A stretch of 64,000 nt of DNA from Thioalkalivibrio paradoxus ARh 1 (GTDB taxonomy: Bacteria; Pseudomonadota; Gammaproteobacteria; Ectothiorhodospirales; Ectothiorhodospiraceae), in contig NZ_CP007029.1 in assembly GCF_000227685.2 (NCBI RefSeq), forward strand, positions 3,570,501 through 3,634,500. The letters are read 5' to 3'. The number at the start of each line of letters is the position of its first letter. Within the stretch, counting starts at the first letter, position 1. The translations under genes were made by a program, and so were the position numbers. A model generated the notes under the pieces. It had not been told where the DNA came from and made no database searches. It saw nothing but the letters and a program-made list of their open reading frames with translations. This document shows, piece after piece, positions 13,912-25,747 of the stretch.

Positions 13912-14178
13912 TCAACTGAACCACTTCTCGACAACGGACCGTGCTGGTACACCACCCATGTGAATCACCTTTCCGTCGATCACGACACCCGGCGTGGCCA
14001 TGACTCCATAGCCGGCAATCGCCGCGACGTCCTCCACCTTCTCGAGTTGCACCTGGACACCTTTTGCTTTCGCGACCTCTTCAATCAGGTTGTAGGCCCG
14101 CTTGCAGTTCGCACATCCAGGACCAAGCACTTTCACTTCTTTCACGATAACCTCCGGGGTTTGCACGTCTTCAGACAC
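13912..14178 (-). CDS. small thioredoxin-fold protein (MTH895/TM0996 type)
   Basis: This 88-residue protein has the single-domain glutaredoxin-like fold with a redox-active Cys pair in GPGCANCKRAYNLIEE and the cis-proline motif ATPGVVIDG. Members frequently sit next to UPF0718/ArsP-type permeases and ArsR regulators and are thought to reduce or shuttle thiol-bound metalloids. Here it directly follows the permease gene (33 bp gap), so they form one operon. Confidence 0.88.
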   Translation of the reverse strand: MSEDVQTPEVIVKEVKVLGPGCANCKRAYNLIEEVAKAKGVQVQLEKVEDVAAIAGYGVMATPGVVIDGKVIHMGGVPARSVVEKWFS

Positions 14179-14211
14179 TGCGAGGACCGAGTAGTCTCAG
14201 CGGGGGCCTAC

Positions 14212-15195
14212 TTACGGCGCGGCCGCCACCGGCAGCCAGGGCGCCAGCGCATTGAACAGCCAGCCCACGATCATGAACGATACCGCAAGGATCCCCACGA
14301 AACGGATCAGTGCCGGCCAGCGGATCACCTTGCGCAGAATCAGGAGCTCGGGAAGTGACAGTGCCGCCACACTCATCATGAACGCGAGCGTAGTGCCCAG
14401 CGGCACGCCCTTCAGCAGCATGGCCTCGGCGACCGGAACCACGCCAATCGCGTTCGAGTACATCGGTACACCGATCAGCACGGCGGCGGGCACCGCCAGC
14501 CAGTGATCCCCGAGGTTCTCGACCCAGTGCTGGGGGATATAACCGTAGAAAAATGCGCCCACGCCGACCCCGATGAAAATCCACTTCCAGATCCGGCGCA
14601 CGATATCCGTGACCTCGCCCCAGGCGTACAGGTGACGGCCCCGCAGGCTGGTATCCCGCTCCGGCATCTGAACCTGCCCCATGTGGATCTTCCACACGTA
14701 TTCCTCGACCCACCGCTCCGGCTTGAACCGCTCCATGATCATGCCGCCGACAAAGGCCAGGGTGAGCCCCGCCAGCACATACAGCAGAGCGACCTGCCAG
14801 CCCAGAATTCCGGCCAGCAGCACCACCGCGACCTGGTTGATCATCGGGCTCGCGATCAGAAAGGAGAACGTGACGCCCAGCGGGATACCCGCCTCCACGA
14901 ACCCGATGAACAAAGGTACCGAGGAACAGGAGCAGAACGGCGTGACCGCCCCCAGCCCGACCGCAGTCGAGCGCGCGGCGACCTTGGAGCGCCCGCGGAT
15001 GTAGTTGCGCACCTGCTCCGGACTGACGAAGGCACGCAACCAGCCCATCACGTAGATCACCACAACCAGCAGGAAGAAAATCTTCGGGACATCCATCACG
15101 AAGAAGTTCAGCGCCGCGCCGAAACGAGTGTCCGCCGATAGCCCGAGGACGCCATAGACGAGCCAGTCCGCGAACCACTGGAAGGGACCGGTCAT
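14212..15195 (-). CDS. UPF0718 (DUF318) permease, ArsP/SO_0444-like
   Basis: This 327-residue polytopic protein has about eight to ten hydrophobic segments. The hallmark Cys motif TPFCSCSSVPLFIGF follows the first helices, and a second conserved block GVPMYSNAIGVVPVAEAML lies in the second half. The family includes ArsP (export of trivalent organoarsenicals) and SO_0444-type metal efflux permeases. The small thioredoxin-fold protein follows in the same operon. The location at the left border of the arsenic genes supports a metalloid efflux role, but the substrate is inferred. GGTCATACGG surrounds the ATG, with no strong ribosome site. Confidence 0.8.
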   Translation of the reverse strand: MTGPFQWFADWLVYGVLGLSADTRFGAALNFFVMDVPKIFFLLVVVIYVMGWLRAFVSPEQVRNYIRGRSKVAARSTAVGLGAVTPFCSCSSVPLFIGFVEAGIPLGVTFSFLIASPMINQVAVVLLAGILGWQVALLYVLAGLTLAFVGGMIMERFKPERWVEEYVWKIHMGQVQMPERDTSLRGRHLYAWGEVTDIVRRIWKWIFIGVGVGAFFYGYIPQHWVENLGDHWLAVPAAVLIGVPMYSNAIGVVPVAEAMLLKGVPLGTTLAFMMSVAALSLPELLILRKVIRWPALIRFVGILAVSFMIVGWLFNALAPWLPVAAAP

Positions 15196-15473
15196 ACGGC
15201 ATTACCGAAGACACGGCTTTTCACTAATCGCGCCGGATCGTTCATCGTGCCGCGCAGAATACCGACCCTATCCGGCGGGTACCAAATCTCTCCCAAGTGC
15301 CCCTTGGGCAGCGGCACGCCTGGCCGCAACTTCCGCTTAGGAATCCAAGCCAGACACCGGTTACCGGCAGCGACGGCACGGCTCGTGCTCTGCCAGCGAC
15401 CCTCGGATCCGGGAATATATCCAACCCGCCGGCCGTCCGGTAAGGGTCCAGAGTTTGTCCACAGGAGCCTGCC

Positions 15474-23263: not shown

Positions 23264-23272
23264 GCGCCCCCC

Positions 23273-24565
23273 ATGTTGCTGACAGCCCTCGTCATCCTCG
23301 TGGTCACCATCGCCCTGGTGATCTGGCAGCCCAGGGGGTTGGGCATTGGGTGGTCGGCCATGGGCGGCGCGGCGGTGGCGCTCGCCACCGGCGTGGTGAG
23401 CTTTTCGGACGTGCCGATCGTGGTCGACATCGTGTGGAACGCGACGCTGACCTTCGTGTTCATCATCATCATCTCCCTGCTGCTCGACGAGGCCGGCTTC
23501 TTCGAGTGGGCCGCACTGCACGTGGCGCGCTGGGGACGGGGCAACGGATTGCGGCTGTATGCCTTCATCGTGCTGCTGGGGGCCGCCGTCGCGGCGATGT
23601 TTGCGAACGACGGGGCGGCACTGATGCTGACCCCGATCGTGCTGGAAATCGTTCGGGCACTGGGGTTCAGCCCGGTGGCTGCGGTGGCTTTCGTAGTGGC
23701 AGCAGGCTTCATCGCCGACACCGCGAGCCTTCCATTGGTCATCTCCAACCTCGTGAACATCGTATCGGCCGACTTCTTCGGCATCGGCTTCGTCGAGTAC
23801 GCCACGGTGATGGTGGTCGTGAACGTGGTGTCGGTGGCGGCTTCGCTGCTCGTCCTGATGCTGTTCTTCCGCAAGCAGATTCCACTGCGTTACGACTACA
23901 CGCAACTGCGTGAGCCGCATGAGGTGATCAAGGATCCTGCGGTATTCCGGGCCGGCTGGTGGGTGCTCGGGCTGTTGCTGTTCAGTTTTCTCGTGATCGA
24001 GCCGCAAGGCGTGCCGATCTCCGCGATCGTCGGGATGGGTGCAGCCATCCTGCTGGTCGTGGCCGCGCGCGGGCATGTCATTTCGACGAAGCGCGTGATC
24101 CGGACCGCGCCCTGGCAGATCGTGATCTTCTCGATTGGCATGTACCTGGTGGTGTACGGCCTGCGCAACGCGGGGCTTACCGCCGACATCGCACGCATCC
24201 TCGACTGGGTCGGTGCCTATGGGGTCACGGCGGCTGCGCTGGCCACCGGCTTCATCGCGGCTTTTCTGTCCTCGGTGATGAACAACATGCCGGCGGTGAT
24301 GGTGGTCGCACTGTCGATCGACGATGCGAACGTAACCGGCCTGGTAAAGGAGGCCATGATCTACGCCAACGTCATCGGCTCCGACCTCGGCCCGAAGATC
24401 ACGCCCATCGGTAGCCTTGCGACCCTCCTGTGGCTGCACGTGCTCGCGCGCAAGGGCATCGTGATCACCTGGAAACAGTATTTCCTGATCGGCATCGTGA
24501 TCACACCCCCGGTGCTGCTGGCCACGCTCCTGGGCCTGTCCGCCTGGTTACAGTTCCTGCGTTGA
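23273..24565 (+). CDS. arsB: arsenite efflux permease ArsB
   Basis: This 430-residue inner-membrane protein closely follows E. coli ArsB along its length. Shared stretches include [71 protein letters not shown] and [21 protein letters not shown]. It has about 12 helices. ArsB exports As(III)/Sb(III), driven by the proton-motive force, alone or with ArsA; no arsA is visible. It starts 9 bp after the CBS gene. Confidence 0.95.
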
Positions 24566-24784
24566 ACATTGAACCGGTGACCCGAGTGCGGGTAAGAAGG
24601 GACGGAGGCCATGCTTTCAGGTGCCTATCAGTGACACCACCCGTCCCCGGCCCAGCCCGCGCTTCCCAGTCCGCGGACGAGCCACTGCCGGATGTTCTGC
24701 TCCTTCCGGAGCGTGCCCTGCCCACCCGAGCACAGAGCGAGCGCACGGCCTGCCGCCGCTGAGACCGAGCGCCCCCAAGCTCCC

Positions 24785-25747
24785 ATGTTCAGTCGGTTCA
24801 CCGTCGAGCGTCATCAGGTCTGGCTGTACCTTTGCGCCATCGTCGGCGGCCTCGCGCTCGGCATTCGGGTTCCGGATATCGGTCCGCTCTTCGAACCGCT
24901 GATCTGGCCAGTTCTCGGGGCCCTGCTGTACACCACGTTCACTCAGGTCCCCCTGCTCCACCTGCGCGACGCCTTTCAGGATCGGCGCTTCCTGCTCGCG
25001 CTGCTGATCGGTAATTTCGTTCTCATTCCGCTCCTGGTATGGGGCCTGGTGCTGCTGCTCCCGGACGATCCGGCCCTGCGCCTCGGTGTGCTCCTGGTCC
25101 TGCTGGTACCGTGCACCGACTGGTTTATCGCGTTCACGCAACTTGGCCGTGGCGACCCGGCCCGCGCCATCGCGGTCACTCCCCTGAATCTGCTGTTGCA
25201 GTTCCTGTTACTGCCGATGTACCTCTGGTTGATGTTGCCGTCCGAACAATTTGCCTCGGTGCTTTCGATCGGTGATCTGGCCCCAGCAGCCATCGGCCTG
25301 ATTGGGGTACCGCTCGTGCTGGCGGCAATCAGCGAGCGCTGGATCGAGGCACGCCCCGAACGTGGGGTCTGGCGTGACCGACTAGCCTGGGGGCCCGTTC
25401 CGCTTCTCGCCATCGTGGTTTTCCTGATCGCGGCAGCCCAGGTCGGTGTGATTCGCGATTCCGGAGCCATGCTGCTCTCGGTACTGCCGGTGTTCATCGC
25501 CTTCGCACTCGCGGCTGCCCTGATCGCAAGGGTGCTGACGCGCTTCCTGAGCCTTCCGGTCAGCAGCGGTCGCACCCTGGTCTTCAGTCTCGGTACCCGG
25601 AATTCCTTCGTGGTGTTGCCCTTTGCGCTGGCGCTCCCTGCCGGCTGGGAGACGACCGTCGTCGTGATCGTGCTCCAGTCGCTCGTGGAGCTGTTCGCCA
25701 TAGCCCTCTACCTTTGGTGGATTCCGCGTCACCTGTTCCGAGCGTAA
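24785..25747 (+). CDS. ACR3/SBF-superfamily arsenic resistance permease
   Basis: This 320-residue polytopic protein belongs to the bile-acid:sodium symporter (SBF) superfamily branch annotated as arsenic resistance proteins. It has about ten helices, including WPVLGALLYTTFTQVPL, LVPCTDWFIAFTQLGRGD with the conserved Cys of ACR3-type transporters, and SLGTRNSFVVLPFALALPAG. It probably exports arsenite, giving a second efflux route next to ArsB. A frame to 24692 exists, but the protein-like start is the ATG at 24785. A gap of 219 bp from arsB suggests its own promoter. Some relatives have other anion substrates. Confidence 0.78.
   Translation: MFSRFTVERHQVWLYLCAIVGGLALGIRVPDIGPLFEPLIWPVLGALLYTTFTQVPLLHLRDAFQDRRFLLALLIGNFVLIPLLVWGLVLLLPDDPALRLGVLLVLLVPCTDWFIAFTQLGRGDPARAIAVTPLNLLLQFLLLPMYLWLMLPSEQFASVLSIGDLAPAAIGLIGVPLVLAAISERWIEARPERGVWRDRLAWGPVPLLAIVVFLIAAAQVGVIRDSGAMLLSVLPVFIAFALAAALIARVLTRFLSLPVSSGRTLVFSLGTRNSFVVLPFALALPAGWETTVVVIVLQSLVELFAIALYLWWIPRHLFRA

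Follow-up and report, generated by a model that had tools for sequence, protein, structure and literature searches.

The catalytic subunits of respiratory arsenate reductases (ArrA) are marked by the motif (R/K)GRY and those of the Arx arsenite oxidases (ArxA) by XGRGWG (PMC6549141). Both types have been reported from Thioalkalivibrio. From 76 genomes of the genus, Ahn et al. (2019; PMC6620896) reported ArxA for 14 strains (15 according to the abstract) and, on sequence evidence, a putative ArrA for two, one of them Tv. nitratireducens; the presence of ArrA in this genus is therefore not new. Coupling of sulfur oxidation to arsenate reduction is known from strain MLMS-1 (Mono Lake) and from mine-tailing bacteria (PMC11283718), in a publication whose main text, in the parts available, never mentions Thioalkalivibrio. 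Here, a 64,000-nt stretch of the Thioalkalivibrio paradoxus ARh 1 genome (the window; positions 3570501 to 3634500 of a single contig of 3,756,729 bp) was analyzed for a putative arsenate reductase operon, arrABC, and the arsenic genes around it (window positions 13912 to 25747). T. paradoxus ARh 1T is an obligately chemolithoautotrophic sulfur oxidizer that comes from soda lakes in Kenya and grows at pH 8.5 to 10.5 (PMC4653848). An original prediction, made from the nucleotide sequence alone, had noted that arsenate respiration would be unexpected if the host were a sulfur-oxidizing relative of Thioalkalivibrio. The host is indeed a Thioalkalivibrio, and the surprise is smaller than anticipated, given the ArrA of two strains published in 2019 and the sulfur-arsenate coupling known elsewhere. 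Judged by its sequence, the locus is a genuine and clearly identifiable arrABC in a host where it would not be expected.

The catalytic subunit groups with ArrA

The three genes lie on the forward strand, separated by gaps of 29 and 3 nt. arrA (16620 to 19247) encodes an 875-amino-acid molybdopterin catalytic subunit with a twin-arginine signal (SRRTFLAG) and RGRY at residues 163 to 166; the RR motif of the twin-arginine translocation (Tat) signal is visible, and the Pfam TAT model scored 21.2 bits, just under its cut-off of 22.7. arrB (19277 to 20017, with an alternative start at 19289) encodes the iron-sulfur subunit, for which ArrB was the best NCBIfam family and in which the starts of four Cys-rich motifs were found. 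The product of arrC (20021 to 21064), an NrfD/PsrC-type membrane quinol subunit, matched PF03916 (28.2 bits; cut-off, 25.8) and had no NCBIfam match.

ArrA was the best NCBIfam family for the 875-amino-acid protein (1124 bits, compared with 470 bits for an ArxA on the same model), followed by PhsA (264 bits), and its best solved relative was the ArrA of Shewanella (PDB 6cz7). In a six-row alignment, it shared 53% identity with this crystallized protein and 32 to 34% with three ArxA proteins of the host's family. Genome contigs were scanned for further relatives, and the best 80 of 548 confirmed relatives were kept, all at least 49% identical and originating from Gammaproteobacteria, Thermodesulfobacteriota, Bacillota, Chloroflexota, Balneolota, and other groups. 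A quick IQ-TREE phylogeny with SH-aLRT supports was generated from 97 rows and 850 columns, using two very distant PhsA-like paralogs from the T. paradoxus genome as the outgroup and no named ArxA reference. Sequences from loci already represented (L012 and L013, the same loci as L048 and L049) and a near copy (L022, of L021) were dropped beforehand. Fragments and duplicate pieces (L014 to L017, L025, L030 to L032, and L034) were left outside the tree, and the ArrA of genomes G033 and G037 are consequently missing from both the tree and the motif count.

The window protein was placed within an 84-row ArrA clade (SH-aLRT, 99). Eight Thioalkalivibrio ArrA formed one group (SH-aLRT, 100) that joined five gammaproteobacterial ArrA from Psychromonas, Photobacterium, Vibrio, and Neptunomonas (SH-aLRT, 99), and the 11 ArxA rows formed a separate group (SH-aLRT, 100). 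The original prediction had suggested such a tree with ArrA, ArxA, PsrA, TtrA, and SrdA references and had named a position in the PsrA/PhsA clade as the outcome that would speak against it; in the tree of ArrA, ArxA, and the two PhsA-like paralogs, from which TtrA and SrdA references were absent, the protein fell with ArrA and apart from the PhsA-like sequences. With a match accepted anywhere in the open reading frame (ORF), [RK]GRY was present in 84 of 84 extracted ArrA-type ORFs (82 distinct loci) and GRGWG in 12 of 12 ArxA-type ORFs. At 46 diagnostic columns separating 75 other ArrA from 11 ArxA, the window protein was ArrA-like in 38, ArxA-like in 1, and neither in 7, and it retained 114 of 120 highly conserved ArrA columns. 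An ArxA identity was rejected, since the protein lacks XGRGWG, carries RGRY, and lies outside the ArxA clade; a PsrA/PhsA-like identity was rejected by tree and motif, the PhsA score being 264 of 694 bits. On the basis of tree, motif, and diagnostic columns, the 875-amino-acid protein is assigned to ArrA.

Distribution of ArrA and ArxA in the genus and family

Matches to ArrA at an E value of 1e−50 or better were present in 21 of 47 genomes of the family. The ArrA type (by identity, 77% or more) was identified in 10 of 30 genus genomes, in G033 and G037 as fragments, and the ArxA type in 12 of the 47 family genomes, 5 of which belong to the genus. Genome G013 carries both types, ∼22 kb apart; in T. 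paradoxus, ArrA was the sole match at 1e−50 and no ArxA was found. None of the ArrA or ArxA matches listed for the family genomes contained an internal stop. One ArrA-carrying metagenome-assembled genome (L047; LCM1.Bin42) shares its isolate name with a Thioalkalivibrio genome reported to carry the MtrCAB extracellular electron conduit (PMC8805035); no passage available from that report says that Thioalkalivibrio makes menaquinone.

Nine PF00384 proteins are encoded in the T. paradoxus genome, namely, ArrA, NarG, NapA, NuoG, FdnG, and four others. The eight other than ArrA did not match an arsenite oxidase (AioA) model at an E value of 1e−40 or better, though whether NCBIfam holds an AioA model was not checked. 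A formate dehydrogenase-N alpha subunit ORF (L008; genome positions 2518659 to 2520110) contains one in-frame TGA, which probably encodes selenocysteine.

Menaquinone genes and possible sources of electrons

Profile matches revealed a near-complete menaquinone operon elsewhere in the T. paradoxus genome (L140:5664-13565, about 1757663 to 1765564 of the contig), in which seven adjacent genes match MenF, MenD, MenH, MenB, MenC, MenE, and a MenI-like thioesterase. Outside the window, genes were predicted with a codon-usage caller trained on 11 window genes. MenF, MenD, MenH, MenB, and MenC each passed at least one curated cut-off, MenE reached 313 of 330 bits, and the MenI-like thioesterase was 133 to 137 bits below its cut-offs. 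A similar operon was found in G013, G030, and G036. menA is located elsewhere (189 bits; cut-off, 102), beside a four-gene [NiFe] hydrogenase operon (L182:7732-14232, about 1397731 to 1404231 of the contig) whose products are a large and a small subunit, an iron-sulfur protein resembling DsrK/HmcF, and a membrane subunit resembling TmcC. Use of H2 is not mentioned in the available parts of the paper on the T. paradoxus genome (PMC4653848). NarG (2263 bits) and NapA (1300 bits) both scored above their cut-offs. By eye, the menaquinone operon adjoins norCBQD-like genes, the putative NorB of which had no NCBIfam match at 1e−15.

Across the 30 genus genomes, menA was above its cut-off in 13, comprising all 10 ArrA genomes together with G028, G034, and G035, and ArrA was found in none of the 17 genomes without menA (Fisher P = 9.5e−6). 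On an rpoB tree of 28 of the 30 genomes (G031 and G032 gave no rpoB), menA required 1 change, arrA 4, and arx 4. The association was rejected as independent statistical proof, as it amounts to a single clade split of the genus; the distribution shows that arr sits in a lineage with menaquinone genes, and repeated co-evolution of the two is not indicated. Among the five ArxA genomes of the genus, menA was above its cut-off only in G013. The same six genomes, and no others, had menD and menB above their cut-offs, and four of these carry ArrA; the futalosine family was found in none of the 30. Four genomes that are 96 to 99% complete (G014, G035, G037, and G038) had menA above its cut-off and neither menD, menB, nor the futalosine family.

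In a literature search with subscription journals mostly outside its coverage, none of the titles and abstract starts listed reported arsenate respiration or menaquinone for T. paradoxus. In the available text of PMC5744179, menaquinone appears once, as the acceptor of SoeABC, and that of PMC5328954, in which three thiocyanate oxidizers are compared and T. paradoxus is discussed, contains no occurrence of arsen, menaquin, ubiquin, or hydrogenase.

Energetics and the direction of the reaction

Using an E0 of 0.56 V for H3AsO4/H3AsO3, quinone potentials of +110 and −74 mV at pH 7, and the corresponding pKa values, arsenate reduction at pH 10 was computed to cost ∼50 kJ/mol with ubiquinol and ∼14.5 kJ/mol with menaquinol, and with a balanced quinone pool would need As(V)/As(III) ratios of ∼6e8 and ∼350, respectively. 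Menaquinol is thus the thermodynamically better donor. Because the reaction is ∼50 kJ/mol uphill at pH 10, ubiquinone-linked arsenate respiration is implausible in this host, and under the potentials used it was rejected for pH 9 to 10. Menaquinone-linked reduction is marginal at pH 10 and possible where arsenite is low. At pH 10, arsenite oxidation is downhill with either quinone, by ∼50 kJ/mol with ubiquinone and ∼14.5 kJ/mol with menaquinone.

The reading that is somewhat favored is that arrABC encodes a membrane-anchored respiratory arsenate reductase, with menaquinol as the most likely donor and the neighboring ars unit transcribed separately. If expressed, ArrA would be exported to the periplasm by the Tat system, the NrfD-type ArrC would draw electrons from quinol, most likely menaquinol, ArrB would relay them, and periplasmic arsenate would be reduced to arsenite. 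At low oxygen, reduced sulfur or H2 could feed the quinone pool, the latter through the hydrogenase encoded beside menA. The arsR-gapdh-CBS-arsB-SBF genes behind a terminator would constitute a separately transcribed cytoplasmic resistance unit.

Several observations weigh against this reading. T. paradoxus has been described as obligately aerobic (PMC4653848), and the scores of ArrA (1124 bits) and ArrB (339 bits) fall below the NCBIfam cut-offs of 1600 and 450. A relative 81% identical to the window ArrA scores 1121 bits on the same ArrA model; the cut-off is a naming threshold and not a mechanistic feature, and for this reason the protein was filed as ArrA by clade and motif. Even with menaquinol, reduction at pH 10 still demands the ratio of ∼350 at a 1:1 pool. 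The menA/arrA pattern, with its one menA change, counts only once; menD and menB pass their cut-offs in no more than 4 of the 10 ArrA genomes (Fisher P = 0.14), and the near-complete ArrA genomes G014, G037, and G038 have menA but neither of these two above its cut-off. Menaquinone may instead serve nitrate or nitrite respiration, given the presence of NarG and NapA, and octaheme nitrite reductases have been described from T. paradoxus (PMC5433712).

An enzyme that is ArrA by descent could also run backwards, oxidizing periplasmic arsenite and passing electrons through ArrC and quinone to a final acceptor, oxygen or nitrate, which would protect the cell or yield energy. The aerobic host, its alkaline growth range, the favorable energetics of arsenite oxidation at pH 10, the presence of NarG and NapA, and the lack of ArxA in this genome would all suit such a role, which is nonetheless considered rather unlikely in view of the ArrA motif and clade, the menaquinone genes, and the redundancy of a second arsenite oxidase in G013, which has both ArrA and ArxA. 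ArrA is bidirectional in vitro; a literature search for this property returned nothing. That the ArrA-clade enzyme of soda-lake Thioalkalivibrio acts mainly as an arsenite oxidase, or changes its direction depending on pH, oxygen, and quinone, is a tentative proposal of slightly lower probability. It appears improbable that the complex acts chiefly on a different oxyanion (antimonate, for example) or persists as a relic in little use. The missed curated cut-offs, an acidic insertion after about residue 317 of ArrA, and changes in 6 of the 120 highly conserved columns, of which two carry an identical replacement in each of the 7 Thioalkalivibrio relatives compared, are consistent with that idea, but RGRY is intact, the other 114 columns are retained, and the listed family matches are free of internal stops. 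For the somewhat favored arsenate reductase, the sequence points to a reductase, and thermodynamics does not fix the direction.

The adjoining ars genes vary between genomes

The original prediction had joined arr and ars into a single island. Across the genus, the conserved unit is arrABC alone, which is terminated before arsR, and the adjoining ars genes vary between relatives. The terminator that had been proposed after the operon is present in the 120-nt gap between arrC and arsR, as a hairpin on the forward strand (21091 to 21119) with a 13-pair stem, 9 GC pairs, and a T-run. Nine terminator-like sites were found in the region, compared with 7.4 expected; this one is set apart by the length of its stem, those of the others having 5 to 7 pairs. 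No promoter-like sites were found in the region (2.2 expected). Upstream of arrA, the DNA of the window and four relatives was poorly conserved except between the window and G027, and no conserved operator was evident.

That arr and ars are not one system, their adjacency being incidental and the ars genes an ordinary resistance operon, is judged probable and is compatible with the arsenate reductase reading. Besides the terminator that splits arrC from arsR, G030, G036, G029, and G038 carry arrABC without the window's ars set in the available stretch, where other genes or the contig end follow (three of these contigs are only 6 to 10 kb), save for a 47-residue arsR-like match near arrC in G030. 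G027 shares 91% DNA identity with the window up to 35 bp beyond gapdh, and its contig then stops within a 27-residue stretch that matches the beginning of ArsJ (43 bits, below the cut-off), where the window has CBS-arsB-SBF. On the other side, arsR is the next gene after arrC in the window, G027, and G037, and arsB is located near arrC on the opposite strand in G013 (<9 kb) and G014 (<1 kb). Moreover, 8 of 75 named arr loci outside Thioalkalivibrio have a relative of ArsP_1 (≥40% identity) or of ArsB or GAPDH (≥60% identity), over 200 residues, in the available flank; this is a lower bound because flanks are often short, and an arr-ars neighborhood is therefore not unusual. Gene order and content across these genomes indicate that the ars genes next to arrABC form a resistance unit of their own, which varies from genome to genome.

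All genes named in the original prediction were present in the orientation given, with every gene from the metallo-beta-lactamase-fold (MBL) gene rightward on the forward strand. arsR (21185 to 21520) encodes a metalloregulator with C-terminal CC and C (NF033788, 62.4 bits; cut-off, 55) and is followed by an ArsJ-associated GAPDH gene (21655 to 22674; NF033735, 537 bits; cut-off, 450), a CBS-pair protein gene (22775 to 23263; PF00571 in two stretches), and the arsenite efflux permease gene arsB (23273 to 24565; NF011980, 668 bits; cut-off, 457). The arsJ gene of T. paradoxus is far from the window (genome positions 1042127 to 1043278) and not beside gapdh, and no relative of the window GAPDH was found in the surrounding 12 kb. 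The 97% protein identity of arsB had raised the suspicion of a recent transfer, which was not borne out, as DNA identity was only 81 to 87%. The last gene, encoding an SBF-superfamily permease (24785 to 25747; PF01758, 66 bits), most likely starts at 24785, which was preferred over 24692 on codon usage. It had been predicted as ACR3/SBF; the superfamily stands, and a true ACR3 was rejected (TIGR00832, 50 bits; cut-off, 282.8), although the PCT motif is retained as in the ACR3 of relatives. No ACR3 above the cut-off was found in the T. paradoxus genome.

To the left, a gene for an MTH895/ArsE-type thioredoxin-like protein (13912 to 14178; GTG start; TIGR00412, 86.4 bits; cut-off, 62) and one for an ArsP_1 permease (14212 to 15195; PF03773, 231 bits) lie on the reverse strand. 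The MBL gene (15474 to 16436, forward strand; PF00753, 52 bits) had been called unusual, and the motif scan agreed, as HxHxD is missing. By eye, the protein has a signal-like N terminus and LGSQDH where HxHxDH is expected; a paralog is encoded close to a PhsA-like operon at another genomic location (L145:15109-15999). Immediately right of the region are two toxin-antitoxin pairs (25931 to 26481, YafQ/RelB type; 27057 to 27736, MazE-like/PIN). At 29505 to 29640, the first part of an ORF reads as a simple (PT)n repeat, and the true start of the encoded protein, which looks von Willebrand-like by eye, probably lies further downstream. Among viral contigs, two stretches fitted the search pattern, and no relative was found.

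Comparison with known systems

The direction question is directly testable, as a cultured type strain and a finished genome are available. If arsenate is reduced, a studied sulfur oxidizer regarded as obligately aerobic would possess an anaerobic mode of life that has gone unnoticed, and T. paradoxus could release arsenite in soda lakes. If arsenite is oxidized, arrA surveys would overcount arsenate reducers, and environmental ArrA alone would not mean arsenate reduction.

The ArrA reported from two Thioalkalivibrio strains probably include the window gene; the available parts of that study contain no analysis of an arr operon, quinones, or an island (PMC6620896). The Shewanella ArrAB (PDB 6cz7) resembles the window system in the 53% identity of its catalytic subunit, the same motif, Tat export, and an ArrB partner. 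It differs in that the window has an NrfD-type ArrC, whereas the six Shewanella loci compared show no ArrC match; Shewanella Arr uses CymA. Closer in architecture are the arrABC operons of Psychromonas, Photobacterium, and Neptunomonas, which form the sister group in the tree and share the gene order, with identities to the window of 53 to 55% (arrA), 64 to 67% (arrB), and 43 to 44% (arrC). Unlike the window, they have no relative of its ars set in the available flanks (the Neptunomonas contig spans 6 kb). The ArxABC systems of Thioalkalivibrio and its family follow the same three-subunit plan as the window arrABC, but ArxA is only 32 to 41% identical over matched stretches, carries the GRGWG motif, and forms a separate clade. 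Should the ArrA of this genus act as an oxidase or switch direction, its two lineages, ArrA with menaquinone genes and ArxA mostly without menA, would allow the determinants of direction to be compared. The locus draws its interest from the physiology that it may confer and from how ArrA and ArxA lineages differ inside one genus.

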